DNA of 64,000 nt from Terebella lapidaria. Its lineage: Eukaryota; Annelida; Polychaeta; Terebellida; Terebellidae. Of this stretch, positions 15,663 through 64,000 are shown piece after piece. The stretch lies in the NCBI GenBank assembly GCA_949152475.1, contig OX424569.1, positions 30,921,950 to 30,985,949 on the forward strand, read 5' to 3'. Positions within the stretch are counted from its first letter, which is position 1; each line of letters begins with the position of its first letter. The position numbers and the translations under genes were made by a program. The notes under the pieces were generated by a model. That model did not search any database. It saw nothing but the letters and a program-made list of their open reading frames with translations, and was not told the DNA's origin.

Positions 15663-15667
15663 ACCAC

Positions 15668-37140: not shown

Positions 37141-37213
37141 CTTAAAGTAGGCCACGCATGTAGAAAAAGATTTCGACAAGTTTGGCCTTTAGGCCAATGG
37201 TATCTCGTTTGTT

Positions 37214-37370: not shown

Positions 37371-38703
37371 GATTTGTCTGTCTGTTTGTACGTTTGTTTG
37401 TGCGCACTCTAGCGTCCACAGTTTTCGAGCTAACATCCCGAATCTTTTTTGATAGATAGGTATCCGCTCTGGGACGGGACCGCACGTTTTTGGAAAAAAT
37501 CGGTTCACTGATGACGTCACCAAAAATTTTTGAAAACTCAAAAAATCCCTATCTCTCATCATTGGCGACTTTTCAAAAATTCACACCACAGTCAAAATAC
37601 GACCGATACCTCTGAAATTTGACACACCGATATATGTTAATATCGTGCATCATACTGCGAAGTCGTATCTGGATCGGTTGAACGTCAATGACGTCACGAC
37701 GTGAAACGTCATTTTTCGAAGTGGGGCTATATATCGGAAAGTATTTGTCGTACAAAGAAGCGAATTGCACCATTGGAAAGCCCGTTGAATTCTGGTTTAG
37801 AAGGGTACTGTCCTATACTTTTCCGCCATGATAGATTTTCCGCTATGAAGTCATAAACGTAAGGCCTGTCATACCAATTTTTCGACTTTTCAGCAAACTT
37901 TCAAACATCCACAGTGCACTCAAATTTGAAGGTATTGAACTGTAATTATCAGAACGTATGTGGAATAATGATATCCAGTCATACACCAAGTTTCAACACG
38001 CTACGTGCAACATCAATGACGTCATGACGTAAAACGTCAATTTTCAAAACGTGCTATATATCGAAAAATATTTATCCTAGAGAGAAGCGAATTGCACCAT
38101 TGGAAAGCTCGTTGAATTCTGGTTTAGAAAAGTACTGTCCGATACTTTTCCGCCATGATAGATTTCCGCTATGACGTCATAAGCGTAAGGCCTGTCATAC
38201 CAATTTTTCGACTTTTCAGCAAACATTTAAACATTCACAGTACACTCAAATTTGAAGGTATTAGGCTGTAATTATCAGAACTCATGTGGAATAATAATAC
38301 CCAGCCATGCACCGAATTTCAACACGCTACGTGAAACGTCAATGACGTAAAACATCAATTTTCAAAATGAAACTATATTTTGGGAAGTATTGGTCGTACA
38401 GAGAAGCGAATTGCACCATTGGAAAGCTCGTTGAATTCTGGTTTAGGGAGGTAATGTCCGATACTTTTCCGCCATGACAGATTCCCGCTATGACGTCATA
38501 AACGTATCCATTCCGGCAAGTGTGTGGCCTATGGCCTCTCGGTTTGTTACTTGCCGGAATCTAAAGATTTCGGCAAGTATGTTGGTCGGTTGGTTACTTG
38601 CCGGAATCTAAAGATTTCGGCAAGTATGTTGATCGGTTTGTGGATGGATGTGTTTGTTACTTGCCGGAATCTAAAGATTTCGGCAAGTATGTTGGTCGGT
38701 TGG

Positions 38704-38737
<34 letters not shown>

Positions 38738-44700: not shown

Positions 44701-45691
44701 AATTGCATGTTTCAAGCTGTCCATGCTGATAAAAGCGTCAATAATGTGCGTAAAAATCTAATGATACACCTGTTTATAGCCAAGGACGAGTTCTTTTGTT
44801 CCGCGAAATTTCAAGGTCAAAGGTCGGAAGTCAAGGTCAATATTGACCCGCAAGTGAAAACCATGTAGGTCACTATATCTCAGGAAGTAAGCAAGATAGA
44901 GACACGAAAGTAAATCCACAGTATTGCACTCACTTAGCCTATCAACTTTTGTATTTACACCTAAGGCGTATGGCCGATAGCCTTTGCAAGCGCCTGAGGT
45001 CGAAGTTGACCCAAAAAATGACCTTGACCTTGAGCTTTCGCGAAAATATCGAGTAGTAACTCGTTAGAAAGGTCTTCGGGAGTAGTTTCGATATATGTTC
45101 TTATTTTTGGAATCTGACGTCATATGACGTCATAATGACGTGAAACGTGATTTTATCATACTTCAACTGATTGTTTACATGAGATGCATAAACCATTTAT
45201 GATTATTGTTGATCCGGTGTTCTGGTAAGTATTGGGGATACCTACTGAAGCTATTTGACAAATATCAGTTCAATAATTGCAGTGGTAATGGCCTAATTGA
45301 CCTTTTTATGACGGAAAATTGGAGAAAATTTCATTTGTTTGTCTTTTCATACTCATAGCGTCCACATTTGTTGCTTGATTCTTTTCAAATTTGATGTAGA
45401 TATTCTGTAGGATAATGGCTCTTGACAGAATGATTTTGAGAAAAATAGCTCTATTGATGACGTCACAAAAGATCCGAATCCTATCAGTCTTTCATGACCA
45501 CAAACTGCTTATGCTAGGAAAGAAATATAATACTTTTTTCAATGTTTTCCATCAACTATACAAAATCTAGAAAAATGCCATTACTCATATTTAAAATAAC
45601 CAGATGCATCAACTTTGCAAAAAATTCAAAGTCTTTGGTAAAAGTTCAAGGTCATTGCCAGCTATTCCGGCAAGTTAGTCGACTATGTCGG
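37364..45691 (+). repeat. 2.75-kb higher-order tandem repeat, three copies
   Basis: Copies run about 37364-40189, 40190-42945 and 42946-45691. Each holds a TTTGTCTGTCTG head, about three 328-bp satellite units, two or three hairpin repeats (first copy three, the others two), a GATT microsatellite (7, 6 and 5 units), a ~1.4-kb segment rich in AGGTCA/TGACCT, and a broken hairpin half (GCTATTCCGGCAAGTTAGTC). Matching positions are offset by 2756 and 2752 bases, with only isolated differences visible. The small open frames recurring in each copy are by-products of the duplication. Confidence 0.9.
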
Positions 45692-45696
45692 TTCAT

Positions 45697-48019
45697 TTGT
45701 TTGTTTGTTTGTCCGTCTGTGAACCCTCTAGCGTCCACATTTCTTGCTTGATTATTTCCAAACTTGGTGTGCACATTCTGTAGGATAACGGCTCGCGACT
45801 GCACGATTTTGGTGATGCTAGGTCAAAGGTCAAGGTCAAGGTCACGCAAAACGTTGAAAACACATAAATGGTCATAACTTCGGTTCTAATGGTCCTAGAG
45901 ACTTCAAATCAAGTTCATATTGTAGATAAACTCGAGTTCTATCTTTTGTGACCTTGATTTCGACATTTGACCTTGACCTTGAGAAGTTCGCCTGAGGTCG
46001 AAGTCAAGGTCAAGTACGAAGGTCGGCGCAGCATATCGAGTAGTATATCGTTGGAAAGGTCTTGAGCCCCTGATTCCAGTGATATCTTATTTTTTGCGCT
46101 GCGACGTAAACTGACGTCACAATGACGTCATAAACGTCGAAAATCCGAAATTTCAAACATCGTCAATAGTGTATGGAATCCCTTGAAATTTGATATGCAT
46201 TTTGACAGCATTGACCTCTACGAACTCAAGTACAAAGGTCAAAGGTCAAGGTCAAGGTCATCGAAATCCCAGAAAAACACGTTTTCTGTAATAACATCCG
46301 TTTGAATCATCGTGGGTTCATGAAATTTGAACCATATCATTCAGAAGAGGTATATCAATCAGACAAATATGTCAATTCCATGATTGACCTCGAACTTTGT
46401 CTATAATCTGACAGAACTCAATCAGGACTCTATGAGGATTTTGGATTTTACAGATATTTTTTATGTTTTCATGGCTCCAATTTTTAATTATTTACTGAAC
46501 ATTCAATTCTAAAGCATTTCATGCAGTCAGTTGCAGTGTTATTTCTAGTTTATGGTCCACTTTTCACATTTGGAATAAATTGAAAACTCGCCAAGATATC
46601 AAAGTAGAAAGAGCAGTGGGGCGAATCTGATTCTCAATCCATTCACACAACAATAAGCTGTAGAAACGATAACCCCCTGTGGACATGTCTTCTTCTAAAT
46701 ATACACACTCGGTCACATAGTAGTACAGTATATCATGTCTAAATACAGTCTGTGTCAAGCGACAGGCCACTTTATATCAGAACTTTATTACTTGCCAGAA
46801 TCTTCGATTTTGGCAAGTATGTTGGTCGGTTGGTTTGTGGGTTTATGTGTTTGTTTGTTTGTTTGTTTGTTTGTCCGTCTGTGAACCCTCTAGCGTCCAC
46901 ATTTCTTGCTTGATTATTTCCAAACTTGGTGTGCACATTCTGTAGGATAACGGCTCGCGACTGCACGATTTTGGTGATGCTAGGTCAAAGGTCAAGGTCA
47001 AGGTCACGCAAAACGTTGAAAACACATAAATGGTCATAACTTCGGTTCTAATGGTCCTAGAGACTTCAAATCAAGTTCATATTGTAGATAAACTCGAGTT
47101 CTATCTTTTGTGACCTTGATTTCGACATTTGACCTTGACCTTGAGAAGTTCGCCTGAGGTCGAAGTCAAGGTCAAGTACGAAGGTCGGCGCAGCATATCG
47201 AGTAGTATATCGTTGGAAAGGTCTTGAGCCCCTGATTCCAGTGATATCTTATTTTTTGCGCTGCGACGTAAACTGACGTCACAATGACGTCATAAACGTC
47301 GAAAATCCGAAATTTCAAAGGGTCATAACATCGTCAATAGTGTATGGAATCCCTTGAAATTTGATATGCATTTTGACAGCATTGACCTCTACGAACTCAA
47401 GTACAAAGGTCAAAGGTCAAGGTCAAGGTCATCGAAATCCCAGAAAAACACGTTTTCTGTAATAACATCCGTTTGAATCATCGTGGGTTCATGAAATTTG
47501 AACCATATCATTCAGAAGAGGTATATCAATCAGACAAATATGTCAATTCCATGATTGACCTCGAACTTTGTCTATAATCTGACAAAACTCAATCAGGACT
47601 CTATGAGGATTTTGGATTTTACAGATATTTTTTATGTTTTCATGGCTCCAATTTTTAATTATTTACTGAACATTCAATTCTAAAGCATTTCATGCAGTCA
47701 GTTGCAGTGTTATTTCTAGTTTATGGTCCACTTTTCACATTTGGAATAAATTGAAAACTCGCCAAGATATCAAAGTAGAAAGAGCAGTGGGGCGAATCTG
47801 ATTCTCAATCCATTCACACAACAATAAGCTGTAGAAACGATAACCCCCTGTGGACATGTCTTCTTCTAAATATACACACTCGGTCACATAGTAGTACAGT
47901 ATATCATGTCTAAATACAGTCTGTGTCAAGCGACAGGCCACTTTATATCAGAACTTTATTACTTGCCAGAATCTTCGATTTTGGCAAGTATGTTGGTCGG
48001 TTGGTTTGTGGGTTTATGT
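45697..48019 (+). repeat. 1.17-kb tandem repeat, two copies
   Basis: 45697-46848 and 46849-48019 are nearly identical. The second has an extra GGGTCATAA near 47320. Each starts with a TTTG/TCCGTCTG run, carries AGGTCA-rich sequence and TGACGTCA sites, and ends with an ACTTGCCAGAATC hairpin. Confidence 0.9.
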
Positions 48020-50250
48020 GTTTGTTACTTGCCGGAATCTAAAGATTTCGGCAAGTATGTTGGTCGGTTGGTTTGTTTATGGATTTGTCTGTCTGTTTGT
48101 ACGTTTGTTTGTGCGCACTCTAGCGTCCACAGTTTTCGAGCTAACATCCCGAAACTTGTTTGATAGATAGGTATCCGCTCTGGAACGGGACCGCACGTTT
48201 TTGGAAAAAATCGGTTCACTGATGACGTCACCAAAAATTCTTGAAAACTCAAAAAATCCCTATCTCTCATCATTGGCGAATTTTCAAAAATTCAGACCAC
48301 AGTCAAAATGAGACCGATACCTCTGAAATTCGACACACCGATATATGTTAATATCGTGCATCATACTGCGAAGTCGTATCTGGATCGGTTGAACGTCAAT
48401 GACGTCACGACGTGAAACGTCATTTTTCGAAGTGGGGCTATATATCGGAAAGTATTTGTCGTACAGAGAAGCGAATTGCACCATTGGAAAGCCCGTTGAA
48501 TTCTGGTTTAGAAGGGTACTGTCCGATACTTTTCCGCCATGATAGATTTTCCGCTATGACGTCATAAACGTAAGGCCTGTCATATCAATTTTTCGACTTT
48601 TCAGCAAACTTTCAAACATCCACAGTGCACTCAAATTTGAAGGTATTGAACTGTAATTATCAGAACGTATGTGGAATAATGATATCCAATCATATACCAA
48701 GTTTCAACACGCTACGTGCAACGTCAATGACGTCATGACGTAAAACGTCAATTTTCAAAACGGGCTATATATCGAAAAGTATTTATCCTAGAGAGAAGCG
48801 AATTGCACCATTGGAAAGCTCGTTGAATTCTGGTTTAGAAGGGTACTGTCCGATACTTTTCCGCTATGACAGATTTTCCGCTATGACGTCATAAACGTAT
48901 GGCCTGTCATACCAATTTTTCGACTTTTCAACAAACTTCCAAACATCCACAGTGCACTCAAATTTGAAGGTATTAGAACATTATCATCAGAACATATGTG
49001 AAATGATAATACCCAGCCATATACCAAGTTTCAACACGCTACGTGCAACGGCGATGACGTCATGACGTAAAACGTCAATTTTCAAAATGGGACTATATAT
49101 CAAAAAGTATTTGTCGTACAGAGAAGCGAATTGCACCATTGGAAAGCCCGTTGAATTCTGGTTTAGAAGGGTACTGTCCGATACTTTTCCGCCATGATAG
49201 ATTTTCCGCTATGACGTCATAAACGTAAGGCCTGTCATAGCAATTTTTCGACTTTTCAGCAAACTTTCAAACATCCACAGTGCACTCAAATTTAAAAGTA
49301 TTAGGCTGTAATTATCAGAACTCATGTGGAATAATAATAATACCCAGCCATACATCGAGTTTCAACACGCTACGTGAAACGTCAATGACGTCATGACGTA
49401 AAACATCAATTTTCAAAATGGGTCTGTATATCGAAATGTATTTGTCGTACAGAGAAGCGAATTGCACCATTGGAAAGCTCGTTGAATTCTGGTTTAGGAA
49501 GGTACTGTCCGATACTTTTCTGCCATGATAATTTCTCCGCTATGACGTCATAAACGTAAGGCTTGTCACACCAATTTTTCGACTTTTCAGCAAATTTTCA
49601 AACATCCACAGAATTCTCAAATTTGGAGATATTGGACTGTAATCACGAGGACATATGTGGAATATTAATACCCAGCCATACACCGATCTTCAACACGTTA
49701 CGTTCAACGACAATGACGTCATGACGTCAATCATCAATTTTGGATATAAGGTTGTATCTCGGTAAGTATTTATCCTAGAGTGGAACTAATTACACCATCG
49801 GAAAGCTTGCTTAATTCTGCTTAAATTAGGACACGTGTGGTTTATTTCCGTCATAATCAATTTTTCGGTATGACGTCATAAACGTAAGGCCAGTCATACT
49901 TTTCAGCGAACTTTCAAGCATCCACATTGCACTCAAATTTGAAGCTATTCGAATGTAGTTTTGAGAACGTATGAGGAATAATAATACCCAACCAGTTACC
50001 AAGATTCAACACGCTACATAGAACGACAATGACGTCATAACATCAAACGTCAATTATCAAAATACGGCTGTATCTTGGTCAGCATCTACCATCGAGTGGA
50101 ACGGATTACACCATTGGAAAGCTCGTTCTATTCTGATCAAGGCAGGTTACGTGGGATTCTTTCACGCCATGATTAACTTTTCGTATGACGTCATAAACGT
50201 AGTTCTGCAATGCACAAATTCGGGGTTGACGAATAGTCAGTGACGTCATA
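48020..50250 (+). repeat. Hairpin plus 328-bp satellite array, right block
   Basis: A hairpin at about 48026-48055 and a TTTGTCTGTCTG run lead into roughly six satellite units that grow more diverged to the right. This suggests an array edge. Confidence 0.85.
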
Positions 50251-51770
50251 AACGTTAATTTTTCGAAATTTCTAACGGTCATAGTGTCCACAAATTTTGT
50301 TTGATTCTGATAAAATTCTGCAGGTATAATATATATATTCATGCACAGGCAATGTACAATTTTCGTGACTCAAGGTCAAAGGTCAAGGTCAAGATCAAGA
50401 CAAAGGTCAAAATCACATAAATGGCCATAATTGTGGAACTAATCGCCGTAGAGAGTTCAAACTAGGACCATGTTGTAGCATATCAAAAGGTCTTTCTTAT
50501 GTGTCTTTGAATGTGACCTGTGACCTTGACCTTGAGAAGTTCGCCATAGGTCAATGCCATGTACGAAGGTCAGCGCACCATATCAAATAGTATACCATTA
50601 GAAAGGTCTTGGTCTCCTGATTCGAGTGATATCTTATTTCAGGCCCTATGACATTCAGTGACATCACAAGGACGTCATGAACGTCAGATTTTCGAAATTT
50701 CAAAAAGCCAAATCCCAGAAAAAAACACATTCTTGGTAATAACTTCTGCTTGAATCTTTGAATCTTTGTATGAAATTTGAATTATATCATTCAGAACAGG
50801 CATGACTCTCAGACTTATATGTTATGTGCATGATATACCTTGAACTCGGTCAGAAAAATGAAGTCACATGAGCAAACTTTCAAGGTCAAGTATTGAAAAT
50901 CATTGAATGCAATCGGGCGTGTCAATTTCATGATTGATCTTGAACTTGGTCAGGAAAATAAGGTCATATGAGGAAAACTTCAAGGTCAAATTTTAAAACT
51001 AACTGAAACCTATCATGTAGTATATCAAATGAAAGGTCTTGATTCCCTGGTACATACTTTCTCATCAGTTTTGAGATGTGACGATTATTGACGTCACAGT
51101 GACGTCATAAACGTTAATGTTTCGAAATTTCAAACGGTCATAGTGTCCACAATGGCCTGCGACTGCACATTTTTGGTGATTCTAGGTCAAAGGTCAAGGT
51201 CACGCAAAATGTTAAAAACTAATAATGTTCAAACCAAGTTTATATTGTAGATAATCTCGAGTTCTATCTTCTGTGACCTTGACCTTGACTTTTGACCTTG
51301 ATCTTGGAAAGTTTGCCTGAGGCCAATGTCAAGGTCAAGTACGAAGGTCAGTGCACCATATCAAGTAGTACATCGTCAGAAAGGTCTTGAGCCCCTGATT
51401 CCAGTGATATCTTATTTTTAATGTAAACATATGCCAGTAGACCCTGTCATAGGCAAGATCAAGTATTTCCTGTTCACAAAATTTCAAAGTCAAAAGTGAA
51501 AGTCAAGCTCAATATTTACCTTTAGGTGGAAATCGAGTAGGTCATTAAATCTCAGAAACTAATGAAGACGGAAACACAAAAGTAAAACCAGAATGTAGCA
51601 CTCATATATACTAGCATCATTTGTATTTAGACCTAAGGGCCTATCGAAGTTGACCTCAAAAGTGACCTTGACCTTTGCTGAAAATATTAAGTAGTAGCTT
51701 GTTTGAAAGGCCTTTGAGATCGAATCCCTGATCTGGCGTTATTTTTGGGTTGGGACGTCATATGACTTCA
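50251..51770 (+). repeat. Diverged AGGTCA-rich segment
   Basis: It contains many AGGTCAAGGTCA and TGACCTTGACCTT stretches and partial matches to the AGGTCA-rich parts of the 2.75-kb and 1.17-kb repeats (for example 'GAGTTCTATCTT', 'CCCTGATTCCAGTGATATC'). Confidence 0.75.
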
Positions 51771-51779
51771 TTATGAATG

Positions 51780-52960
51780 GAAAGTCACTTTTTATTGATA
51801 TTTGGGACTTTCGGGTGTCAGATGCACAAAATTGTTTTATTCATTGCAAATTTGATGCTCGGATCTCATTCAACAATAACTATTTCAGCTGCTTGCAAAT
51901 TTCTGCATGATCCCATCACTGGTTGTGAATTAACTGAAGATCACTTGGGCGTGGGTATTACGTTTGAGGTCGAAGACATATAGCATTTTAAAGTGCATGC
52001 AAATTTGATGCTCGGAAAACAGCAAAATGGAAACCAATCACTATCCTCCTCGATGTTCGTCGTTTTCGGGGACAAAGAGCATCGTTATTTTTTTAGAAAA
52101 GCAACCAAAAATTTTGTTGTTTTCTCAGAATAATTGCGTTTCACCCGCCCGCTGATTGGAAACAAAAAATATTTACCTATTGACGTTTGAGGACGAAGAC
52201 ATATAGCATTTTAAAGTGCATGCAAATTTGATGCTCGGATCTCATTTAACAATAACTATTTGAGCTGCTTGCAAATTTCTGCATGATCCCATGACTGGTT
52301 GTGAATTAACTGAAGATCACTTGGGCGTGGGTATTACATTCAGCTTCATTTTTGTCTAATATCCATGGTTTTCTTGTATCAGACATTTCAGACAGAGGTT
52401 TCAATAAAATCAGACAGAGGTTTCAATAAAATTAGATGTGTTTTTTCTTCTTAACCCGTCATTTATTTTTTCTTCAAAAAGTAGCAGCCATCCATTGAAA
52501 ACACACAGGAAAAACCACAGACGTTTATTATAACGATCACATCTTTGTACACAAAGTAAGTCCTACCAAAATGTAAAATAAAGTATAGTGGAGCAGCCAT
52601 CCAGGGAAAAACACACAGGAAAAAACACAGACATTTATTATAACGATAACATCTTTGTTCACAAAGTAAGTCCTGCCAAAATGCAAAATAAATTATATTG
52701 GAACATCTGCTAAGCTTTTAAATACTTTATTGATAAACAACAGATAGGAAAACAGCAAACTGGAAACCAATCACTATCCTCCACGATGTTCGTCGTTTTC
52801 GGGGATAAAGAGCACCGTTTTTTTTTTAGAAAACCAACCAAAAATTTTGTTGTTTTCTCAGAATAATTGCGTTTCACCCGCCCGCTGATTGGAAACAAAG
52901 AATATTTACCTATTCACGTTTGAGGACGAAGACATATAGCATTTTAAAGTGCATGGATCG
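51780..52960. repeat. Local duplication cluster
   Basis: Three repeat pairs are seen. 51852-51962 matches 52228-52340 (TTTGATGCTCGGATCTCATT). 52015-52225 matches 52748-52955 (CTATCCTCC, TTCACCCGCCCGCTGATTGG). A ~107-bp unit at 52485-52591 recurs at 52592-52700 (GAAAAAACACAGAC-type stretch). No gene is recognised. Confidence 0.75.
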
Positions 52961-53514
52961 AAATTGGCAACACATGGATGACACACGTCACCTCAATTTA
53001 CACTTACCCCTGAACCTCATGCTTCTGCTTCAGATATAATCGGAATCGGTGTGCTTATAATTGAAATTAGTTTAAGCTTATCTTGAACAGAACTGGTGTT
53101 TGGCCATTACTCATTACTCACTTGTTTGTGATACAGCGTGAATGGATAAACTGTTTGTCAGATGAATAATAGGGCAATATCTGAACACTTAATGGTGTCG
53201 AGCCAACACATGTTTTAATAATACAGACACATGATGACAAGTGACGTGTCTTTGTCTGAGACAGCAACTCAAACGTTCGCTCTTGTATATTATCTGACTT
53301 TGTCAAATCAGTTATTCAAAAACTTTGGGCGTGTAATGGAACTACAAATATACTGGCCCTTTCATTATATTTTATTAAAAACAAATATTGTATGAACAAA
53401 ATCCCATAGAGATATGTCAAAATTGTATTTCTGACTGAGTACATTGCGTTTTTCAGTAAAACACATATCACACAATTTGACTAAGTATCCACAGGACAAT
53501 AAAAAAGCATTGGT
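52961..53514. other. AT-rich spacer, nothing recognised
   Basis: I see no gene, repeat boundary or RNA structure. Confidence 0.35.
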
Positions 53515-53516
53515 TT

Positions 53517-53660
53517 TTTCGGTACTCATCGGTACTCATCGGTACTCAGCCATTGAGTACTGGGTTTACATTGTACTCAATTACTCAATCATTGTACTCA
53601 AATACATTGTACTCAATGTAGCCATTGAGTACATCGGTACTCATCGGTAATCAGCCATTG
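53517..53660. repeat. GTACTCA/TGAGTAC motif cluster
   Basis: About a dozen copies of GTACTCA or its complement TGAGTAC, in both orientations, are packed into ~140 bases, with CATCGGTACTCATCGGTACT direct repeats and AGCCATTGA spacers. The motif allows many alternative foldbacks. Confidence 0.7.
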
Positions 53661-55550
53661 ATAACAATTATTCAGGTCCATTCGCTTGACTGTTCATATA
53701 TTCATAAGTGAAATTACCGATGCCAAGTCGATGCCAAGCCAAAGGCTCACCTAATGAATGGAAATGATGATTATGTGACATGATATCTCTTCGCTTACGG
53801 ACAACTCAATGCCACGCCAGAGGCTCAATGAATGACGATGGTGAATGGTGGTGAATAAAGATGGCGATATGTGTACATTTAAAGTTAACACATGCATCTA
53901 CATGAACAATCAGTCAATCGCAGAACTATACCAATCGGATTGCTGATTTGATCATATTCATCACTTATCATACTCGACACTGTCCTGGAAATTCCTGCAA
54001 AGCTTTATACAAACGCATCAATTATATAGTCAAACTTACTTTCATTGACACAAACAAATTGCAATAGGGGTCGTTCCTCAGTACAGTATGATTAAAGATT
54101 AATGACAAAGTTTCAGCAAAATATTTTATATTTTCTTCACAACAGGCCCACATCCCTCATCCATAATATACAATATTAAAAATACACCACAAAATACATA
54201 CATGAACAAATTATGTTACGTATCAATGCAATACCTGTAATGGACTTCAATGACATGAAGTCCATACGGTGCCATATTATAAAATAGTATATATGGTTCT
54301 CACAAGATATTATGTAATATAAATTATCTCTAAGATACATAACATTATTTATTATATTGATATTAATGTCTTTAATATACTGTAAGGATCTTTCCGTATT
54401 CAAACATTTTTTTGGCATCATTCTTTAGTGTACTCAGCCATTGATAAGTAAAATAAACCCATGGTCTTATGTGTTTCTGGACACAAAAATTTTTTACGTG
54501 TCACATTGTATAGCATTTTGTACATGAGTAATTATATATAAACTGAACATGAGCATTTTGCATAAGGTTATGATTCATGAACACCAAGATACACACCGCC
54601 ACAGTTGACAAAGAGACCCTACATACTCCAGTATACATCACAACTCGATATAGTCATGTGCTAGTTTATATCAAAATTACCTCCACCTTGAGTGGCGTTC
54701 CCAGGACTGAATTCATCTCTTTGATTGAGCAAAGCAAGACCTATCACAACAGGTATACATAAAACACACAATGTACACTATGACTCACGTATAATTAACA
54801 AGTAGAGGTCCAGGTTTAGAAAATAAGGCTATATCAAACTAATTACACAATTATCGCTCAAACTAATTACATAATTATCGCTCAAATTGCTCAACAACTT
54901 CCATGAAAACATTTGCTGTATCAGTCATCATTTCCCTTATTTTTTAACCGAATGAATATACATATCAAGAACAAATAGATAAATCTTGCTGAAGATATTG
55001 TGTATGCGGATCATTTTCTATACAAATGTGTTGATAAAAATCCATGATACAAACCAAAAAAATGTCCATTTATCATAGGATTTACATACCTCTTGGCAGG
55101 ATGATCAAAATATTTTTTAAACAAATCCACACGATTACTGATGCACTTCTATATTGCACCAGCAGGCGCAAATATCCCACTCCCCTCCCCGCCATTCCAC
55201 CCACCCCACTGCCCATATATAGAGCTTGCACAGAAAAAAACCCTGTGCAAGTTGCCTATCTCACAGAAGATCAGCTCACAAACCATTTCAATCTTACTGT
55301 TTGTTATTTGTGTACAATATTCTGACGTATGATCATCGTTATCAATAGACAGTTATTACACTTTATTTTACATCAAGTGATCCAGAAATGTAGAAAATAT
55401 ATCTGTAATATACAGAATGATAAATGTCCCCGGTATATAATTTTGTTAACGTTACACGGACATTTCAAGGAATCACAAAACGGGACTTGGTAATGGGTTA
55501 TTGAACATCACAGTGAATGATAAATATCTATGTATGATTTCCTTGTGCTG
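53661..55550. other. AT-rich intergenic sequence
   Basis: No coding region is supported. A pyrimidine-rich stretch (CCCACTCCCCTCCCCGCC, near 55180) and a short foldback of TGACATGAAGTCC type near 54245 are the only visible features. Confidence 0.35.
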
Positions 55551-55615
55551 TGACTTCATTTCGTGATCAGAACAATAAGTGTCATGTATATCAATAAGGA
55601 TGTCACTACGAGCAA
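55551..55615 (-). pseudogene. Remnant of a second Helentron endonuclease C-terminus
   Basis: On the minus strand this reads SDILIDIHDTYCSDHEMKS. That is clearly related to the end of the intact Helentron protein (NDTIIDVHDTYFSDHDMTF, encoded at about 55894-55950). It lies about 0.3 kb beyond the intact stop codon, and the frame around it is not preserved. It is either a relic of an older neighbouring Helentron or a partial tandem duplication of the gene's 3' end. Confidence 0.7.
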
Positions 55616-55879
55616 CACCCCATTTTGAGTAGCAATGTCAAATGCAAAAAAGACCAGTATCCTTCTGAACAGCAATTATCATCATCTCATCAAATGCAAC
55701 AAATACCAATAAATAACATATCGATAGATTTTTTTCCATTCCAAAATGGGATATGATAACTAAACACTGATCAATGTAATGCCACCAATAATATCAACAG
55801 ATAACAATTATTACAATAAATTGGATATTCATCATTTAACATCTCTCGGTTGAAATGCAAACCGAAAGTAAACATTTCA
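55616..55879. other. 3' flank of the Helentron ORF
   Basis: AT-rich sequence between the relic and the stop codon. The Helentron 3' terminus, expected to end in a short hairpin, could not be assigned. Confidence 0.3.
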
Positions 55880-58800
55880 TCACTTTGTGGACAGGAATGT
55901 CATATCATGATCAGAAAAATAGGTGTCATGTACATCAATAATAGTGTCATTCAATTTACACCTATTGTAGTATATGTGGTCAATTAGGGTACCTCTATCT
56001 GTAGTTGGTGTTGTAACCAGTTGATCAAATCCTAGCTCTGTCATTAAGTTCGTTAACTTGCTTTCAGGATTGACACTAAGATCATCGTTGAAATCCCCAA
56101 GAACAACTATCGGTGTATCAAGTGGCAATTTTTGCATTATAGTACGGAGCTTCTTGAGAAATTTTTCCAATTGAAAGGATGGTTTTCTGTAGACAAGAAC
56201 CACAGTCAACTGAACTGCCTCAAAAGTTACAACTTTACATTCCAACCCCTCAGTGTTCTCGGGTGTGTTATCCTTCCCTTGCAGTCCGTATTTTCCACAA
56301 ATCATGATTCCATGCATCCCGTCATGTACGTCTGTAGATGGAATGTTTTGTCTGAAAGCATTGTACCTGTACTTCTGACAGAAAGTGTCAATATTGTGCT
56401 CATTGACCAAATACGTTTCAGTGAAGCACATAACATCTACACGTTGTAATACTTCACTTGATCTGTCACTTAGTAAATCCGGGAGTTTCTTCAAAAAGTA
56501 CCGCACATTCAAATGTCCTACTGTTCTCCAGCCAGGCTCCTTGACATCCATTAGCTTCAAGCGTTCTTTTAGTATTGTGTTCCCTCGCATTTCTTCCATT
56601 TCAGTTTCTACTCTGTCATTGGCTTTGATCCCAACAGCATCAAAATTCACAATATATAAACCTTCCATAGTCTTTACACGGCTAAATGCTACATATGCTT
56701 GTCCTTTGCCAAAGCGTTTTGCTCCTTTCATGTTGACAACTATTGTATCAACTGTAAGACCTTGACATTTGTGAATCGTTACAGCCCATGCCAACGTGAG
56801 AGGAAACTGTCTTCTCGCAATTTGAGCACCTTTTTTGTTACCCTTTTCAAACCTCCCTTCATGTCTCTTGATTGGAACTGCATTTGGGTACTCATTTTCC
56901 CATTGACTGGTTCGAATAGCATTTCTACCAACTGTGTCATTATCAAATTTAACTAGGACAACTTGTGCCTTTCCATTCACATTTTTCACAATACATTCCA
57001 CTGTCCCGAGTACACCATTTACAAGACCATCCGCAGTGTCCACATTATATGTCAACATGACTCTTGCATGTTCTGCTAGTATCAAAACTGTATGCAATCC
57101 TGCCGTTTCTGAACGTTTTGATGATGCACGTATCGTTTCCAAATCAAGCTGACCAGTACTATCAGTCTTGTCGTCTGATGCATGAATATACGAAAGTTTT
57201 TCTTCGTTTGGCTCTAATTCTCTTAGTTTCTTCTCGTTTCTGTTGTCAACGTCAGCATTGTATGCAAAGACATGTAGTGCATCATGTGGATACGAAGGGT
57301 CATCCTCGGTTATCTCACGTCTTCGCAACATTGCAATATCAGCCTCGGTATGTTTTCCTACTCTGATACGACAAAGCATTTCAGCAAAAGCACCATCATC
57401 CTTTTGTCGCATAACTTCATCTAATTCATGCAGTCTGAAGTGGTCTTTCCAAATGTTGCCATTAAGCCGCTCAACAGGATCCCGAACAGGTTGGAAAATG
57501 TTAGACTGCTTCACTGGTGGAAGTTGATACATGTCTCCAACTGCTAGCACCGATACATTCCCGAAGACTGATTCTCCTGTTACACCTTTGATTTTCTCCA
57601 ATCTCTTGTGAATGTCTAGTAACATTTCTGATCCTACCATAGATATTTCATCAACGATCAGCAGATAAAGATTCTCGAGTTTGGATCTCAAACTATTCAG
57701 TTTATCAAATGATATTTGATCACACCCATACTTTTTAGTTTGCAATAGTAATGCAGAATGTATTGTCATTCCACCTATCTGGTAAGCAGCCACACCGGTT
57801 GGACCAAGCAAAAGTACGACAACATCGTATGGCGATATGGTGTTTATCATTCGTAGCAATCTTTTTGCATCTGACTGTATCAATTTGATCACGTGTGATT
57901 TCCCGACACCACCAGGTCCACTCAAAAATATGTGATATGGTTTGACTGGCTTATTTTCTCTTAGTGCTATCACTGTTTCCTTGCACCATTTCCTGTTGTA
58001 AAACACAATTTCTGCTTGTTTTTCATTCAACCCACGAACCATGCGTCTGTACTCGTCATCCTCTAATGTCTTTTTTTCAGCCTCTGCTTGATATCGTACA
58101 GTGATTTCAGACACATGTTGAGCATCAGGTCGTTCTATCATTGCTGCATTATCATCAAGATCTTCCTGGACAATATCTCTCTCAACATCAATGCCCTCGT
58201 TAACGTCTTGTAAATTATCATGTTCGACGCCCGGTGCAATATCTGCCCATACGTGTTCAGGTGGCCCAAGTCGTTCATTGTTTTCCACAGCCTGCTCTAT
58301 CAATTCTAAATTTTCAGTGAACTTTGTTTCATTTTCATGGATATATTCTTCAACTGCAAAATAGTGTGACGCATAGTCAGGATATTGCGCCAATAAGTCA
58401 GTGTCTTCATTTCTCCAGGGAAGAAACAACATCAGTTTTGCTCGATAGAAGTCACTCGGATTTTTTTCATGACTAAATTTGCGAAACCTGATGACAGCCT
58501 CACGCTTTCGCTTCTGCATGATGCCACCAGATTTTTTCAAGCGAATATACTTGGGGAGTTCTTTACGGTTTTCCATCTCATCTTCAATTTCTAACACAGT
58601 AGGAAGGCTGTCATCAGTGCACTCGTCAGGGTTTGCATAGCTAACTTTATAGTTACAAGCAAAATCTGCAAGGCAGATGTTCCCAACACAGTCTGGCCTC
58701 AGTGAGTATCTTTCAACAACATTACTCTGGAAAATATTTTCATCAGATTCCTCCAGTTCATCAAGTTGTTTTTGTGGCTTCAGAACCGCTGCTCTGTCAC

Positions 58801-61800
58801 ACATTTGGTCAGTATTCACAAACAGTACTTCTCTGCTGAATTTCTTCATTGGCATGGACAAAATGCGATATACAGCTTCTTGTGCACTGAGTTCACGATG
58901 ATTCAGAAAAACAGAACCCACACGCCGTAACATAGTCTTTATTTCCTGATCTTTATACTCTTTACAAACTTGTTTGAGAAGCTCTCCTATGCCTTTTTCA
59001 TTCTTTGTCATATATGCAGCTATGTACATAACACATGCATAAGCATCGATTATATATTGTACATCAATATTTGCCTGCCAAGCTTTCAAGACAGTGGAAT
59101 TGTAGGCGTTAACAGATGTTTCCTGGGGAGATCTTCTCAACATTACAGTTGTGCCTCTCTCTGAAACTTGTAATGCTTGTGTGTAATTTTCCAAAGAGAC
59201 CTCCGCCTTCGTCAAGATTTCGCTCATATTGGAATCTTTTGGAGTGTTCTCATCACAAACGACATTCTTAACTTTACTGAGAACATCTGAAGCATGCTCC
59301 TTCTTATTATTCGCCGTCTCAGGATCGTCGGGTTCTCTTGCAATGATTGTGAGTGGAGCTGGTGGTCTCGGGTAGTTAAATCTACAATATCCTTTTTTCT
59401 TGCAGTACGACGAATGAGTGTGTGTCTGCAACTTCTTCACCAGCTCTTTGAGACAAGGATCGTCTTCAGGAATTTCACAAGAAATATGTTTGTCAATGAA
59501 AGATGCAATCTGTTCATCTGAATTTACATTAATCTTTGGTGCATTTTTTACCCATAGCAGAGTGTGTGCATGGGGAGATCCACGAGCTTGAAATTCAATG
59601 CGAATGACATAGTCAACAATCTCTCCTAACGGTTGTGCATTAGATTTCAACACATCCTTGAACAAGAGCTCCAACCTGTACTGAAACTGTCTCGCAGCAG
59701 TCACTGGATTCCTTCTCAACCATTGTGATCTTTCAATGAAGGACAATTCTCGCACATCTTCATCACTCAAAGTTGTCCCATACTGTCTTGCTATCGTCTG
59801 TATGACATCAGGCCATTGCATGTCAGCAGCAGACACTGTGAAGAACCAAGTTGGTATCCCTAGCTGTCGAACCATGCCCAACACGTCATAAAAAACAGTT
59901 TGGAAGTAGGCTGGTGTTCCTCTTACGTTCTTTAACATTCTATATGCATGATCAGCTTTCATATAACCTTTCATTTGTTCAACACTTTTAACCATTCCAG
60001 CCGTTAGAGATTTTCCTTGAAAATTCTTTCCACTCGCTCTTCGAAAGATGTAATGGTTGATATCACTGGTTACTTGTTTGCATTCTGTGGCATACTGTGC
60101 ACTGAGGATGTATTCTATTGACCCAAACCGACCATCAAAATCAAGTAATCTTTGGTTGAAATACCTTCGTGGTGTCAGTTCACAGGGGCGCTCAGCTGTC
60201 ATTGCATTTGATCCATCCGGATATTTGTCTGGATTTGAGAGTTCTTCAAAGTTAGGATCACTAAGAAATGGCGTCGGTTTCTCGCCTTCAGCTGGAGCCA
60301 CACTGATTACTTTGTTCAGCAATTCAGGGTCTTCGTTCACCATGCTCGTTTCATATGGTAATCCACGTATTTTCGAAGCTTCTTCAAACGCTCGCTCATC
60401 TTCAGCTACCATCTCATCAGTCTCTTCATCACTATCAGAATCTCTGGTACTCATTTCTATCGCATTGTTGTAGGTTGCGCGGAATTTGGAGGATATACAT
60501 GGTTCAAAAATCACGTAATGTGATTGTGCAATCAATCCAAGGTGAATGACACGTGCACCATTGTTACCAGCTCTCGGTTTGACAATATGTACCACATCAG
60601 ATGAAGTTGCATGGATATTCACTGTCAAAGAGTACATGTCTGCTAGAGCTTGCAATATCACATTGTCACCCCAGAGACTTCCATTTTCAAGTTCATCAAG
60701 ATATCTGACCCACTGTACTTCTCTTTGTGAATCACGATCCTCTATGGCACTGATAACCATGTCCTCTATAGTTGGTTGTTCTGTGTCAGCATTGGACAAA
60801 TCATGATTTCCAATTCTTGCTGCTATAAAATCTATGTAGTGTTCTCGATTTTGCCGCATGAATTCAGAAATCTGGAAGCGCAACAAAGTAGGATTTGTAT
60901 CGGTAATACCAAGCAGTTCGAGGTGGTACCAAATTGCATAAAACATACAATTTCCATCTCCTGGTACATCGATAATATTCATATCGTTTTGCCTTGCCAT
61001 CATAGCTAGTTTATCATAATCATTCCGATCGGACTTGCCTATATCAGCCATAGACACAACTTCAAATGTGTTGTTTTTGGATGCTACTTGACGATCGTCC
61101 CCTTTGTGTATGTTGGATGTGCTTTCTTGCATATTTTTGTTTGGTTCTTTGTCCTTTGCTTCTTGCTCGTTTTCGATGCTTACTTGTCTGTCATCCGAAC
61201 TGAATGCTTGCCACAGCTCATTATCATCATTTTTAGCGTCTTCAACCCAACTGTCATTTATTTCTACTGTGCTATAATGTGGATTGTTTTCCTTCAACCA
61301 CCTAAGTGCATTCATCAGTACATCTGGTCTCACATGTTCATGTATGTAATGAGTAGAATGTTTCAGTTGCCTCTTAAGCTTCATTGGGACTATTTGAGAC
61401 TCTGATGGCAGCCGCGGCAGCAAGTGACAAACTGCATCTAGTTTTGAAGGCACGTTCACTGCTGGTCCATGTATCCCATATTGTTTGCCCCTTGGTAATG
61501 CAACCATTTTCATGAATGGGATTCTTTGGCAGATAAGTCTCAATTCTAACGGATTTAGGTCTTTCAGTTCACGTGGTTGTTCGACTAATGACAAATTATT
61601 AGCTTTGGACTGCGCAGGTAACTTTCCTTTTTTTAGAGTCAAATGGCATGTTCTGCAGATCCATTCATGATCATCATAAGATCTCAGTCGGAATGAAAGC
61701 ACCTCACTCAACAAAGCTTTGGAACACTTCTTATATTTTTCATCATTCAGACGAATGACTGTCATCCTGAAGAGCAATCTATGACATGAACAACATATAT

Positions 61801-62626
61801 AGTTAGCAGAATCCTTAACCTTATCAAGAAAACCACATACCACATCCTCATCCGTACTGTTTTTAATCTTACGCAAAGTTCTCTGACGCTTCCTCTGTTC
61901 AGCAGTTCTCAACTTTTTCTGCACTGGTGTTTCGCTTTCTATTTTATCCTTCTGAATCTTGACTTGTTTCTTAAGTCTATTTTCTTTCTTTTCAGATGTT
62001 TCTTTTTCAATCCGTTCTGCTTCTTGGCAACGTTTTTTGTCGAGTCTTAATTTTTTTTGTTCTGCTGTTTCTCTCTCACGAAAGTCCCTATTAATTCTTG
62101 ATTGTGCATCAATTCTTTGCCTCCTCTTTTCTATGGTTTCTTCTGCTCGCAATTCCCTTTGAAATTTCGCATCTTTATCATGTCTTAACCTTTTTTGTTT
62201 TTCTGTTTCTCTGTCTCTTAAGTTCATCTTAAATTTTGCATCTGTATCACGTCTTCTCAGTTTTTGTTCTATTGTTTCTTCATATCGCAATTGCCTCTGA
62301 ATATTTGCTTGTGTATCAAGTCTGCGCCGTTTTTGTTCTGTTGTTTCTTCAACTCGCAACTTCCTCTTACGTTCTGCTTGTGCATCTCGTCTTTGCTGTT
62401 TTTGTTCAATTGATTCTTTTACTCGCAACTCCCTTTGACTTTCTGCTTGTCGCACAACTCTCTGTTTTTTCTCCTCTGGCAATTCAGATTGTCGAATTGC
62501 TGAACGTCGTTTTCGTTCCTTCTCTAATCGCTCAACTTTCTCACTTGATGCTTCATTTTCTCGTAGTACCCTCATTCTAAGCTTTGTTTCCTTTCTCCTT
62601 TGGTCTGCACTTTTTCGCCTGGCCAT
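55880..62626 (-). CDS. Helentron Rep-helicase with OTU and AP-endonuclease domains
   Basis: An unbroken frame of ~2,248 aa starting at the ATG at 62626, in good context (AAAATGG). Residues 1-270 are Lys/Arg/Glu-rich with 23-residue repeats. A Cys-rich zinc-binding segment (CCSCH...WICRTCH) lies at about 280-330. An OTU cysteine protease lies at about 550-710 (DGNC with Cys560; His703). The HUH Rep domain has HAH at 1019-1021 and paired tyrosines Y1201/Y1205 (YIAAYMTK). A PIF1-type SF1 helicase has Walker A GGVGKS (Lys1576), Walker B VDEIS (Asp1659) and a C-terminal VAFSRVK. An AP-endonuclease-like domain fills about 2045-2248 (GDFNDD near 2178, SDHD near 2240). Such proteins nick and unwind DNA for rolling-circle transposition; OTU plus endonuclease marks the Helentron branch. 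All key motifs are present, so it may be active. Confidence 0.93.
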   Translation of the reverse strand: MARRKSADQRRKETKLRMRVLRENEASSEKVERLEKERKRRSAIRQSELPEEKKQRVVRQAESQRELRVKESIEQKQQRRDAQAERKRKLRVEETTEQKRRRLDTQANIQRQLRYEETIEQKLRRRDTDAKFKMNLRDRETEKQKRLRHDKDAKFQRELRAEETIEKRRQRIDAQSRINRDFRERETAEQKKLRLDKKRCQEAERIEKETSEKKENRLKKQVKIQKDKIESETPVQKKLRTAEQRKRQRTLRKIKNSTDEDVVCGFLDKVKDSANYICCSCHRLLFRMTVIRLNDEKYKKCSKALLSEVLSFRLRSYDDHEWICRTCHLTLKKGKLPAQSKANNLSLVEQPRELKDLNPLELRLICQRIPFMKMVALPRGKQYGIHGPAVNVPSKLDAVCHLLPRLPSESQIVPMKLKRQLKHSTHYIHEHVRPDVLMNALRWLKENNPHYSTVEINDSWVEDAKNDDNELWQAFSSDDRQVSIENEQEAKDKEPNKNMQESTSNIHKGDDRQVASKNNTFEVVSMADIGKSDRNDYDKLAMMARQNDMNIIDVPGDGNCMFYAIWYHLELLGITDTNPTLLRFQISEFMRQNREHYIDFIAARIGNHDLSNADTEQPTIEDMVISAIEDRDSQREVQWVRYLDELENGSLWGDNVILQALADMYSLTVNIHATSSDVVHIVKPRAGNNGARVIHLGLIAQSHYVIFEPCISSKFRATYNNAIEMSTRDSDSDEETDEMVAEDERAFEEASKIRGLPYETSMVNEDPELLNKVISVAPAEGEKPTPFLSDPNFEELSNPDKYPDGSNAMTAERPCELTPRRYFNQRLLDFDGRFGSIEYILSAQYATECKQVTSDINHYIFRRASGKNFQGKSLTAGMVKSVEQMKGYMKADHAYRMLKNVRGTPAYFQTVFYDVLGMVRQLGIPTWFFTVSAADMQWPDVIQTIARQYGTTLSDEDVRELSFIERSQWLRRNPVTAARQFQYRLELLFKDVLKSNAQPLGEIVDYVIRIEFQARGSPHAHTLLWVKNAPKINVNSDEQIASFIDKHISCEIPEDDPCLKELVKKLQTHTHSSYCKKKGYCRFNYPRPPAPLTIIAREPDDPETANNKKEHASDVLSKVKNVVCDENTPKDSNMSEILTKAEVSLENYTQALQVSERGTTVMLRRSPQETSVNAYNSTVLKAWQANIDVQYIIDAYACVMYIAAYMTKNEKGIGELLKQVCKEYKDQEIKTMLRRVGSVFLNHRELSAQEAVYRILSMPMKKFSREVLFVNTDQMCDRAAVLKPQKQLDELEESDENIFQSNVVERYSLRPDCVGNICLADFACNYKVSYANPDECTDDSLPTVLEIEDEMENRKELPKYIRLKKSGGIMQKRKREAVIRFRKFSHEKNPSDFYRAKLMLFLPWRNEDTDLLAQYPDYASHYFAVEEYIHENETKFTENLELIEQAVENNERLGPPEHVWADIAPGVEHDNLQDVNEGIDVERDIVQEDLDDNAAMIERPDAQHVSEITVRYQAEAEKKTLEDDEYRRMVRGLNEKQAEIVFYNRKWCKETVIALRENKPVKPYHIFLSGPGGVGKSHVIKLIQSDAKRLLRMINTISPYDVVVLLLGPTGVAAYQIGGMTIHSALLLQTKKYGCDQISFDKLNSLRSKLENLYLLIVDEISMVGSEMLLDIHKRLEKIKGVTGESVFGNVSVLAVGDMYQLPPVKQSNIFQPVRDPVERLNGNIWKDHFRLHELDEVMRQKDDGAFAEMLCRIRVGKHTEADIAMLRRREITEDDPSYPHDALHVFAYNADVDNRNEKKLRELEPNEEKLSYIHASDDKTDSTGQLDLETIRASSKRSETAGLHTVLILAEHARVMLTYNVDTADGLVNGVLGTVECIVKNVNGKAQVVLVKFDNDTVGRNAIRTSQWENEYPNAVPIKRHEGRFEKGNKKGAQIARRQFPLTLAWAVTIHKCQGLTVDTIVVNMKGAKRFGKGQAYVAFSRVKTMEGLYIVNFDAVGIKANDRVETEMEEMRGNTILKERLKLMDVKEPGWRTVGHLNVRYFLKKLPDLLSDRSSEVLQRVDVMCFTETYLVNEHNIDTFCQKYRYNAFRQNIPSTDVHDGMHGIMICGKYGLQGKDNTPENTEGLECKVVTFEAVQLTVVLVYRKPSFQLEKFLKKLRTIMQKLPLDTPIVVLGDFNDDLSVNPESKLTNLMTELGFDQLVTTPTTDRGTLIDHIYYNRCKLNDTIIDVHDTYFSDHDMTFLSTK
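62020..62460 (-). repeat. 69-bp coding minisatellite (23-residue repeats)
   Basis: Within the Helentron N-terminus about six 69-bp units encode variants of LRxEETxEQKxRRxDxxAxx. They predict a long, highly charged helix, possibly for nucleic-acid or nuclear binding. Units differ at synonymous and non-synonymous sites, so they are not a very recent expansion. Confidence 0.8.
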
Positions 62627-63055
62627 TTTCACTAGTTTAAGTGTATGTAAACAAATTATACACTACTTATAGGATTCCCAACGTATGTAAAATGAGAGTA
62701 CACTTATTATAATGTTAAACTTTCGTATTACCAAATTATTTTGAAAAGAGCAAATTATTTGGAAAAAAAAAACAGCTGTACTGGTTTTCACACAAAATAT
62801 CAGTTTCTATATGTATTGGTAGAAGCTTTTGAAGACAGATTAAATGTCGTTCGTTGTTTACTCTCAGATATTATCAGCTTATATTCGCATAGACTATCAG
62901 TGAATGTAGTCAATCAATAACAGGAAGCAGTAGAATTCTTTATTCTGCACGAGATAGATACAAATAGTCGAATAACTCGCAAGTTATGTACCAAAGTCCC
63001 CAGCCACAATATTTATGGAACGTTATGATCGTAATATAAATGGGACAGTCTGACG
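62627..63055. other. Helentron 5' flank / leader
   Basis: On the minus strand a TATAAGTA-like box near 62664-62671 lies ~40 bases upstream of the ATG. The element's 5' terminus probably lies within or just beyond this segment but has no unambiguous mark. Confidence 0.35.
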
Positions 63056-63068
63056 AATGTTGAATGAA

Positions 63069-63074
63069 TTTATT
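63069..63074 (-). terminator. Candidate poly(A) signal AATAAA
   Basis: AATAAA on the minus strand is about 490 bases beyond the TAA of the exon at 63559-63696. It would place the hairpin cluster inside that gene's 3' UTR. Confidence 0.3.
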
Positions 63075-63143
63075 TTTTTTTTCAACACAAGTCAATCAAT
63101 AATTCAGTCCACAAATTTGGGTTGGGCCGATGTCTGTTTCTCT

Positions 63144-63427
63144 CAAGGCCACACCTTGCCACTGATACTAAGTGACAAGTTTTTTGGCGTTACGGACGCC
63201 CTCAAGGCACACCTTCTGGTGATTCTCGAGCACAGGACCTTAACCTCGTTCCAGGTTAAGGCTGGAATCCAGCTACCTTGCACCACGCTGTGTGCAAGGT
63301 TTGTCCTCGGTGAGAGTTCCGAGTAGCTGTTATCTCTTGTTTAGTACGTCAAACAAAGAGACTAACTCACAAAGACCTTCTGAGAAATTGTGAGCTACCA
63401 CACAAAGCACCGTTCCGTGCAAAGTGT
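63144..63427. ncRNA. Run of consecutive hairpins, possible structured RNA
   Basis: In ~280 bases nearly every segment pairs with its neighbour. CAAGG/CCTTG (63144-63158); CTTGcCACT/AGTGaCAAG (63155-63179); GGCGT/ACGCC (63186-63200); 9-bp CCTTAACCT/AGGTTAAGG (63238-63261); GCTGGA/TCCAGC (63261-63273); 9-bp ACCTTGCAC/GTGCAAGGT (63275-63300); CTCGG/CCGAG (63306-63323). Next, GTAGCT/AGCTAC (63323-63398) encloses two more stems. Last, ACAC-aaa-GCAC/GTGC-aaa-GTGT (63400-63427). The hexaloop CGTTCC occurs twice. It is not a tRNA, and no known RNA family is recognised. Strand and transcription are unknown. Confidence 0.5.
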
Positions 63428-63558
63428 AGCTTGAAGAACACCGGAACAACAACAGCCTGAAAGAAAAAAAAATCTTATCAAGTTGCCACATCAGGTAAGA
63501 TTAATTTAATTACAATCTCGAAATATTTGCATTGTGTACAAAATACTACATGATTTTT

Positions 63559-63696
63559 TTAATGTACTAGTAACCCGAATCCAATGCATACACCACAAGT
63601 ACTGAAGTATCTCTTCTGTCTCAAGAACGTGTTTGCAGGGCTGTAGTCAACTGGAAGACCAGGACTGTAGTCAACTGCCGACGAGTCGAACGTGGT
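63559..63696 (-). CDS. Probable last coding exon of an unrecognised host gene
   Basis: On the minus strand a good acceptor (CATTCTTTTCAG) is followed by 45 codons and a TAA. The peptide begins TTFDSSAVDYSPG and contains a short internal repeat, VDYSPG/VDYSPA, whose two DNA copies differ partly at synonymous sites. That supports this frame. The C-terminus is hydrophobic (CGVCIGFGLLVH). It would be joined in phase 0 to the exon at 63862-63906 across a ~165-bp GT-AG intron. The product is not recognised; more exons must lie beyond the window. Confidence 0.45.
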   Translation of the reverse strand, partial: TTFDSSAVDYSPGLPVDYSPANTFLRQKRYFSTCGVCIGFGLLVH

Positions 63697-63861
63697 CTGA
63701 AAAGAATGACCATACATGTACATGATTTATCAGTACATTAGAATTGGTATCGCTGAATTAACCCAGAATAATGTATAGTTAATTTGTAGAGTTATATGGA
63801 CAACCACAGAATATGACGTACATTTATACTGAAAATCACAAAATATAATAAAGCAACTCAC

Positions 63862-63906
63862 AAGACAAACTCGGAAAGCTATCTCGGGAATGTCGATGCC
63901 ACAGAC
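63862..63906 (-). CDS. Probable 45-bp internal exon of the same host gene
   Basis: On the minus strand the acceptor TTTCTGTCCACAG precedes 15 open codons (VCGIDIPEIAFRVCL), and the donor CTT|GTGAGT follows. Frame 0 is the only one that stays open into the next exon. The gene is cut by the window edge. Confidence 0.45.
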
Positions 63907-64000
63907 CTGTGGACAGAAATCACAGGTTACAGCAGATGCCTAGTAATGTACTAGTAAATAGTGAGTGAAGAGTCCATTGTTGCAGTCAATCACACCTCCA

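Follow-up and report, generated by a model that had tools for sequence, protein, structure and literature searches.

An intact and probably recently mobile Helentron with an STPR-type repeat array, inserted in the left end of a relative in Terebella lapidaria

The transposase gene and its domains

The window, by which we mean the whole 64,000-nucleotide stretch of Terebella lapidaria DNA analyzed here (contig OX424569.1, positions 30,921,950 to 30,985,949), contains just three stop-to-stop frames that reach 200 amino acids. The longest of these (62662..55880, 2,260 amino acids from stop to stop) carries a transposase gene that is open from an ATG at 62626 through to a TGA, and the first-pass annotation was correct in describing an uninterrupted frame of about 2.25 k residues. 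Elsewhere in the window, on the plus strand at 15602-19174, there is an uninterrupted 1,190-aa retrotransposon frame in which integrase domains precede reverse transcriptase and RNase H, an order that we take to be that of Gmr1-like Gypsy elements. The transposase gene and its parts are as follows.

55880..62626, minus strand: transposase ORF, 2,248 aa in one uninterrupted frame
61868..62557, minus strand: 23-aa STPR-type repeat array, residues 24-253 (periodicity test and FMBP-1 5d23 profile match)
61646..61795, minus strand: CxxC pair, putative zinc finger, residues 278-327 (motif scan)
61247..61630, minus strand: DUF6570 domain, residues 333-460 (Pfam PF20209)
60512..60964, minus strand: OTU-like cysteine protease domain, residues about 555-705 (Pfam PF02338; C560 and H703 present)
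59003..60160, minus strand: HUH Rep endonuclease, residues 823-1208 (Pfam PF14214 at 823-1024; H1019/H1021 and catalytic Y1201/Y1205)
56651..57979, minus strand: PIF1-like SF1 helicase, residues 1550-1992 (Pfam PF05970)
55898..56524, minus strand: C-terminal AP-type endonuclease, residues 2035-2243 (Pfam PF03372 at 2056-2240)

Each Pfam match exceeds its curated cut-off: Helitron_like_N (1.6e-30), DUF6570 (PF20209, 2e-22), PIF1 (1e-20), Exo_endo_phos (PF03372, 1.3e-10, residues 2056-2240), and OTU (PF02338, 7.1e-6, 27.0 bits against a cut-off of 23.3, with the best stretch at 555-677). Among PDB sequences the helicase part matches PIF1 at 4.9e-34 and Helraiser (7lcc) at 5.9e-21. The domain profiles proposed as a check at first pass find Rep and helicase, and OTU and endonuclease too; the count of five modules falls short, as the protein also has the 23-aa repeat array, the CxxC pair (which we infer to bind zinc), and DUF6570.

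The key residues listed at first pass for the OTU, HUH, Rep tyrosine, Walker A/B, and endonuclease motifs are in place, with all 17 of the catalytic residues checked being present: D557/C560/H703 in OTU; H1019/H1021, Y1201/Y1205, and K1208 in Rep; Walker A K1576 and Walker B D1659/E1660 in the helicase; and N2040/E2070/D2178/N2180/D2239/H2240 in the endonuclease. Their functional roles are presumably those of the corresponding residues in each family. They are unchanged across 18 other aligned copies, the exception being a gap over three OTU columns in copy L014, the frame of which is broken by a stop. The sole NCBIfam match is a weak recD on the transposase helicase, under its cut-off, and nothing in 52-64 kb matches Rfam at gathering thresholds. 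We also note that the last endonuclease codons (55900-55949) are echoed 344 bases downstream at 55556-55605 with 84% identity, and this echo may be left over from another 3' end.

An N-terminal repeat array related to the FMBP-1 STPR domain

Residues about 24-253 of the transposase are built of head-to-tail 23-residue units, with identity within the array of 0.39 and 0.40 at lags 23 and 46, compared with a maximum of 0.21 in 2,000 shuffles. A profile from 11 copies matches the STPR structure of silkworm FMBP-1 (5d23) in register (E=3e-8, about 36 bits), and its second-best match reaches only 0.058. The single sequence of the array matches the FMBP-1 STPR at 0.0014, and the same sequence reversed, a control that parallels the single-sequence search and not the profile search, has no match at E up to 1. 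The array therefore has what defines an STPR, namely tandem 23-residue repeats related to those of FMBP-1. As the FMBP-1 STPR is a DNA-binding domain that is helix-rich once on DNA (PMC4821344), the array by analogy probably binds DNA in double-stranded form, and its target may be the element ends. No STPR model in Pfam, Rfam, or NCBIfam matches the transposase, and we found no paper in open-licence PubMed Central that contains Helitron together with the exact word STPR. The FMBP-1 site pattern is ATNTWTNTA; counted without a shuffled control, such sites are scattered across both elements with no clustering at the ends, and end binding gets no support from them.

Could the repeats be merely a basic coiled coil or a nuclear signal, and not an STPR DNA-binding domain? 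They are highly charged and of low complexity, their constraint is weaker than that of any other named domain (dN/dS 0.32-0.48 in comparisons with four copies), the FMBP-1 match is modest both for the single sequence and in profile bits, and the site pattern is not concentrated at the element ends. We are nonetheless doubtful of this explanation, against which stand the strict 23-residue period, the profile match in the FMBP-1 register with its distant runner-up, and the absence of a match for the reversed single sequence. Moreover, in the alignment copies differ by the gain or loss of complete 23-aa units; protein lengths across copies include 2202, 2226, 2249, 2271, and 2294. An STPR-type array thus remains our preferred reading, and it provides a specific and testable guess as to how ends are recognized.

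Element ends and insertion site

Sister copies and an empty site place the left end of the element at 48026 and its right end at 68082, 4,082 bases past the window (about 30990031 on the same contig, C16). The first-pass span of 55880..62626, offered as the whole Helentron, is the ORF only, and makes up one third of an element of 20,057 bp. The element, its left-end parts, and the adjoining sites are as follows.

48026..64000 in the window and on to 68082, plus strand (published Helentron-end orientation): Helentron element (sister copies and empty site)
48026..48057, plus strand: left end, with subterminal repeat ACTTGCCGGAAT at nt 2 and its inverted partner making a terminal hairpin
48058..48118, plus strand: GTTT-rich left-end microsatellite, the equivalent tract in relatives being a landing pad for other members
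48392..50201, plus strand: satellite-like array in which a 328-bp unit is repeated 5.6 times, close to the left end within the element (Tandem Repeats Finder)
47961..48025, plus strand: the host relative's remaining left end, with hairpin 47961-47989 and a microsatellite remnant
46790..46879, plus strand: paralogous empty site, at which the adjacent array unit carries the same left end without an insertion

The right end (ATGAACCGACATAGTCG... in the ORF sense) is sharp in all nine copies compared with sisters (seven of lineage B, described below, together with the studied element and copy L018), and on the ORF strand an A stands before the A of the right end in 9/9. The left end reads T-ACTTGCCGGAATC..., and its hairpin folds as single-stranded DNA at -10.4 kcal/mol (z -6.5); the right end alone has no stable fold (z -0.9). 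From the left end inward come the hairpin, the GTTT-rich microsatellite, and the 328-bp repeat array, and the right end has ATTCCGGCAAGT, then a palindrome, CGACTATGTCG, then GGTTCAT. The 12-bp subterminal inverted repeats (ACTTGCCGGAAT / ATTCCGGCAAGT) lie 1 nt from the left end and 21 nt from the right, the termini are TACTTG and GTTCAT, and the target is T|T. We dropped the assignment of the hairpin end as the 3' end, because the published HINE layout, with subterminal repeat, inverted partner, and microsatellite on the left, makes the hairpin end the left end; on our reading of this layout, the ORF is antisense to the published Helentron-end orientation.

Joined without the element, the flanks read GTTTGT|TTGTTTG with no target duplication and are identical at 85/85 bases to the uninterrupted neighbor unit (46879-46790), both the joined flanks and the adjacent unit containing (AAAC)6; beyond the right end, a further 369/369 bases are identical to the neighboring unit. 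The Helentron has therefore inserted into the left end of a non-autonomous relative, within its microsatellite; the relative is a 1.17-kb unit repeated in tandem. Divergence among other units in this array region is 1-3%, and array homogenization could also produce flank identity of 100%. The adjoining arrays (37200-48000) contain stacks of two or three hairpins and consist of 1.17-kb units that are 99.1% alike and, beside the Helentron, three 2.75-kb composite units, each 97.0-99.2% identical to its neighbor; one part of the composite unit shares 93.8% identity with 1.15 kb at the Helentron's left end, which makes these units its likely dependants. A second 328-bp satellite-like array (33391-36938, 9.3 copies), lying beside three hairpins in 66-bp units, is apparently a further family member, and about 65 kb past the window (C16, 31050227-31058251) three further insertions of the same right end are found in array units of this kind.

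Genomic copies and selection

Intact copies had been expected at first pass to be uncommon, which is not the case in this genome. A genome search, in which 21 of 2,402 candidates were scored, identified at least 21 long loci including the studied element, with 75-100% protein identity, and full-length open frames are present in 18 of the 21 scored; the others are L014, with a stop, L018, without the N-terminus, and L027, which is interrupted. Nineteen loci including the studied element were re-translated (16 intact, three not), the intact frames on C14 and C15 coming from the genome search alone, and two extra lineage B copies were detected only through DNA matches and ends. These counts may contain doubles, as small contigs C23 and C246 may be unmerged haplotypes; the copies on C2 and C23 agree at 99.5% across 9.76 kb that apparently lies wholly within the element.

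One group of copies, lineage B, has barely diverged. Its copies on C12 and C8 share 99.7% identity across 17,955 alignment columns, and three others are 99.6-99.7% identical to that on C12 over 8.3-9.9 kb, such that copies on different chromosomes are merely 0.3-0.4% divergent; the seven lineage B copies have seven unrelated right flanks (22-39/100 nt alike). Among four lineage B ORFs, dS is 0 to 0.003 and dN/dS is 0.27 to 1.6, with too few changes for a usable value. Near-identical sister copies on several chromosomes point to recent movement of the family, in agreement with the recent activity suggested at first pass, and the number of long loci contradicts a single old, diverged copy. The search then proposed for near-identical copies succeeds for the sister lineage and not for the studied ORF, whose nearest fetched relatives have about 93% DNA identity; no close whole-length descendant of this copy is seen, and its recency rests on the outer module (see below), flank identity, and the sister lineage.

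The transposase is under purifying selection. The studied ORF has dN/dS of 0.11-0.22 against ten copies (codons with gaps were dropped, and dS against L028, at 1.49, is near saturation), and by domain against five copies the values are 0.07-0.11 for Rep and 0.08-0.17 for the helicase, being low also in DUF6570 and highest in the linker 461-534 (0.55-0.93), followed by the STPR array. Purifying selection would also fit a domesticated host gene that is not a transposon, an explanation that we regard as scarcely credible for a multi-copy, dispersed sequence that is bounded by transposon ends, has an empty site, and belongs with a sister lineage whose near-identical copies are on several chromosomes.

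Mosaic structure of the studied copy

The right-hand part of the studied element resembles lineage B far more closely than its ORF does.

62932..64000 in the window and on to 68082, minus strand: outer module of about 5.15 kb, with 13 columns differing from lineage B before an abrupt change

Over the outer 5,150 nt there are only these 13 differences (99.7% identity); another mismatch follows at 5151 (window 62932), and from there identity drops to 75-93% per 500 nt, and dS between the studied ORF and lineage B is 0.38. Copy L018 shares the outer module at 99.7% (2.16 kb fetched), and its ORF is about 93% identical. We read the studied copy as a recent recombinant in which a lineage B-type outer module of 5.15 kb was joined to a more distant ORF, perhaps by template switching or conversion. 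A 47-base stretch at 63631-63677, in the outer module, matches tandem arrays spaced at about 185 bp on C13, C15, C16, and C17, and is possibly captured host sequence.

The abrupt switch to lineage B, together with the roughly 93% identity of the closest fetched ORFs, might be taken to mean that this copy, although intact in its ORF, is now immobile and kept similar via gene conversion, with lineage B the active source. We consider this a genuine possibility but not a probable one: the copy retains both ends, its hairpin, and every catalytic residue checked, the frame is without a stop, and the flank is 100% identical to the neighboring unit. Our preferred reading remains that of an intact Helentron that was probably recently mobile, as judged from sequence.

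Nested insertion and the origin of arrays

Family members often land in the left-end microsatellite of a relative or directly against its terminal hairpin. Among 350 exact right ends, 67 come directly after GGCAAGTA, the end of a relative's hairpin, and 133 after CAAACAA (200 in the two classes together, and 150 in neither), but the left-end tract is itself T-rich, and self-targeting is therefore not separable from a preference for T in these counts. A 23-base pattern locates 49 right ends lying 6-36 nt beyond CGCTAGAG, the mark of a relative's left end. Individual loci are more direct. At C8, non-element DNA is followed by the lineage B copy, then by the beginning of another element and, after about 850 unread bases, by four stacked hairpins, the outermost of which bears the tail ACACAAATAAACGAACAGACC seen on uninterrupted lineage B-type ends, and beyond the stack lies DNA that is 91% like the opposite flank over 57 bases. 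At C3, a left end resumes past a nested element and is then interrupted a second time, and at nine exact sites a complete left end stands against a residual lineage B-type tail. In all, 22 of the 37 lineage B-type tails were classed: nine run into a right end of the same type, seven into another right end, and six are uninterrupted left ends (gap 32-62). Serial nesting explains at least C8, C3, and the nine exact sites.

The 57-bp stretch that flanks the C8 insertion on both sides (L031 510-566 and L045 from 457, 91% alike) could be an old tandem repeat of the target or something else.

Arrays could also be generated by read-through of an end signal or by head-to-tail integration of circles, and such processes, with no nested insertion, might account for the position of the studied element too. 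Helitron arrays have been attributed to end bypass (PMC4067079), joined-end circles have been shown for Helraiser (PMC5876387), the repeat period of some arrays does not vary (1,515 bp on C1, for example), and the 67 right ends joined directly to GGCAAGTA look as precise head-to-tail junctions would. As a general explanation this seems unlikely to us, given the 133 right ends after CAAACAA, the 49 demonstrably within a relative's left end, the broken left ends that resume after the insert at the studied element, C8, and the nine exact sites, and the several different sequences of the abutting right ends in the seven lineage B copies. End bypass or joined circles may possibly lie behind part of the 67 hairpin-abutting ends. 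Under nested insertion, repeated events would yield head-to-tail arrays with left-end hairpins stacked on one side.

A further suggestion, which is speculative and in our estimate unlikely to hold, is that the family uses its own ends as a landing pad: the variable STPR array would bind the terminal repeats of relatives, integration would follow in the adjacent microsatellite, arrays would grow by serial nesting and not by end bypass, and gain or loss of 23-aa units would tune which ends are bound.

Interpretation and proposed mechanism

Taken together, a single intact transposase with several domains, precisely defined ends, the empty site, and the lack of target duplication indicate a complete Helentron. 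We think it very likely that this is a potentially autonomous member of a recently moved family, that the copy is recombinant, and that nesting builds the arrays around it. By extension from characterized Helitrons, with Helraiser as the source (PMC5876387), the Rep tyrosines would nick one strand at an element end, here at T|TACTTGCC or GGTTCAT|T, the PIF1 helicase would peel off the nicked strand, and an intermediate circle would form before the strand joins a TT dinucleotide. Perhaps the endonuclease opens the T-rich target strand, and the OTU domain may trim a polyprotein or act on host ubiquitin, although both roles are guesses. Since this family combines intact autonomous elements of little divergence with non-autonomous relatives, and its ends and an empty site are known exactly, it is well suited to tests of Helentron transposition, of what OTU and endonuclease do, and of whether Helentron arrays originate by nesting or end bypass.

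Comparison with known systems

The element is neither a canonical Helitron (Helitron1), having TACTTG/GTTCAT termini and a T|T target and not 5'-TC/3'-CTRR ends with an A|T target, nor a Helitron2, in which Rep-helicase occurs without the endonuclease that is present here. Helraiser, the bat Helitron, is not known to have a fused endonuclease and, as a canonical Helitron, has an A|T target, unlike the T|T of the studied element. Its Rep-helicase core is nonetheless similar (PDB 7lcc; PMC5876387), as the helicase match noted above illustrates. The Helitron2-type FoHeli elements of Fusarium oxysporum (PMC5148889) are like the studied family in recent activity and self-insertion, and some have hairpin ends or reversed ORFs; they differ, in the part of that report drawn on here, in having no endonuclease, a size of about 5-11 kb, and self-insertion given as single examples.

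Agreement is closest with Helentrons and HINE/DINE-1 elements (Thomas, Vadnagara and Pritham 2014, PMC4067079), the identity proposed at first pass. As in those elements, a two-tyrosine HUH Rep, a PIF1-like helicase, and a C-terminal fused AP-type endonuclease (PF03372, as above) are encoded in one frame; OTU is found in some Helentrons and is present here. A Ser in Rep motif 2, (V/I)ExQxRGSPHxH, is diagnostic of Helentrons (Thomas et al. 2014, PMC4067079, section 7), and in the studied transposase this motif reads IEFQARGSPHAH, with Ser between G and P and the RG-S-PHxH signature in common. Subterminal inverted repeats with a palindrome or stem-loop are likewise shared, including the hairpin at the end, as is insertion at TT without target duplication, demonstrated here by the empty site. 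Antisense ORFs are reported for a few Helentrons (PMC4067079; PMC5148889), and one in Drosophila ananassae has its ORF reversed relative to its ends (PMC4067079), as we find. The published repeat spacing is not reproduced, being 2-4 nt at 5' and 38-60 nt at 3' (PMC4067079) as opposed to 1 and 21 nt; we treat exact spacing as variable and not defining, and the order of parts agrees. An STPR array, which the studied element carries, is not mentioned in the portion of that paper used here.

A parallel in layout is Cg_HINE of the Pacific oyster (Vojvoda Zeljko et al. 2020, PMC7492417), which likewise has a left subterminal repeat with inverted partner and microsatellite, a right subterminal repeat and palindrome, satellite-like repeats between these modules, and a TT target without target duplication. 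To go by the cited part of that study, its authors could relate no autonomous element to Cg_HINE, whereas at this locus an autonomous element is present and one array unit shares 93.8% identity with its left 1.15 kb. The Terebella element is a known kind of element, with an overlooked DNA-binding-type repeat array and an unusually clear nested insertion.
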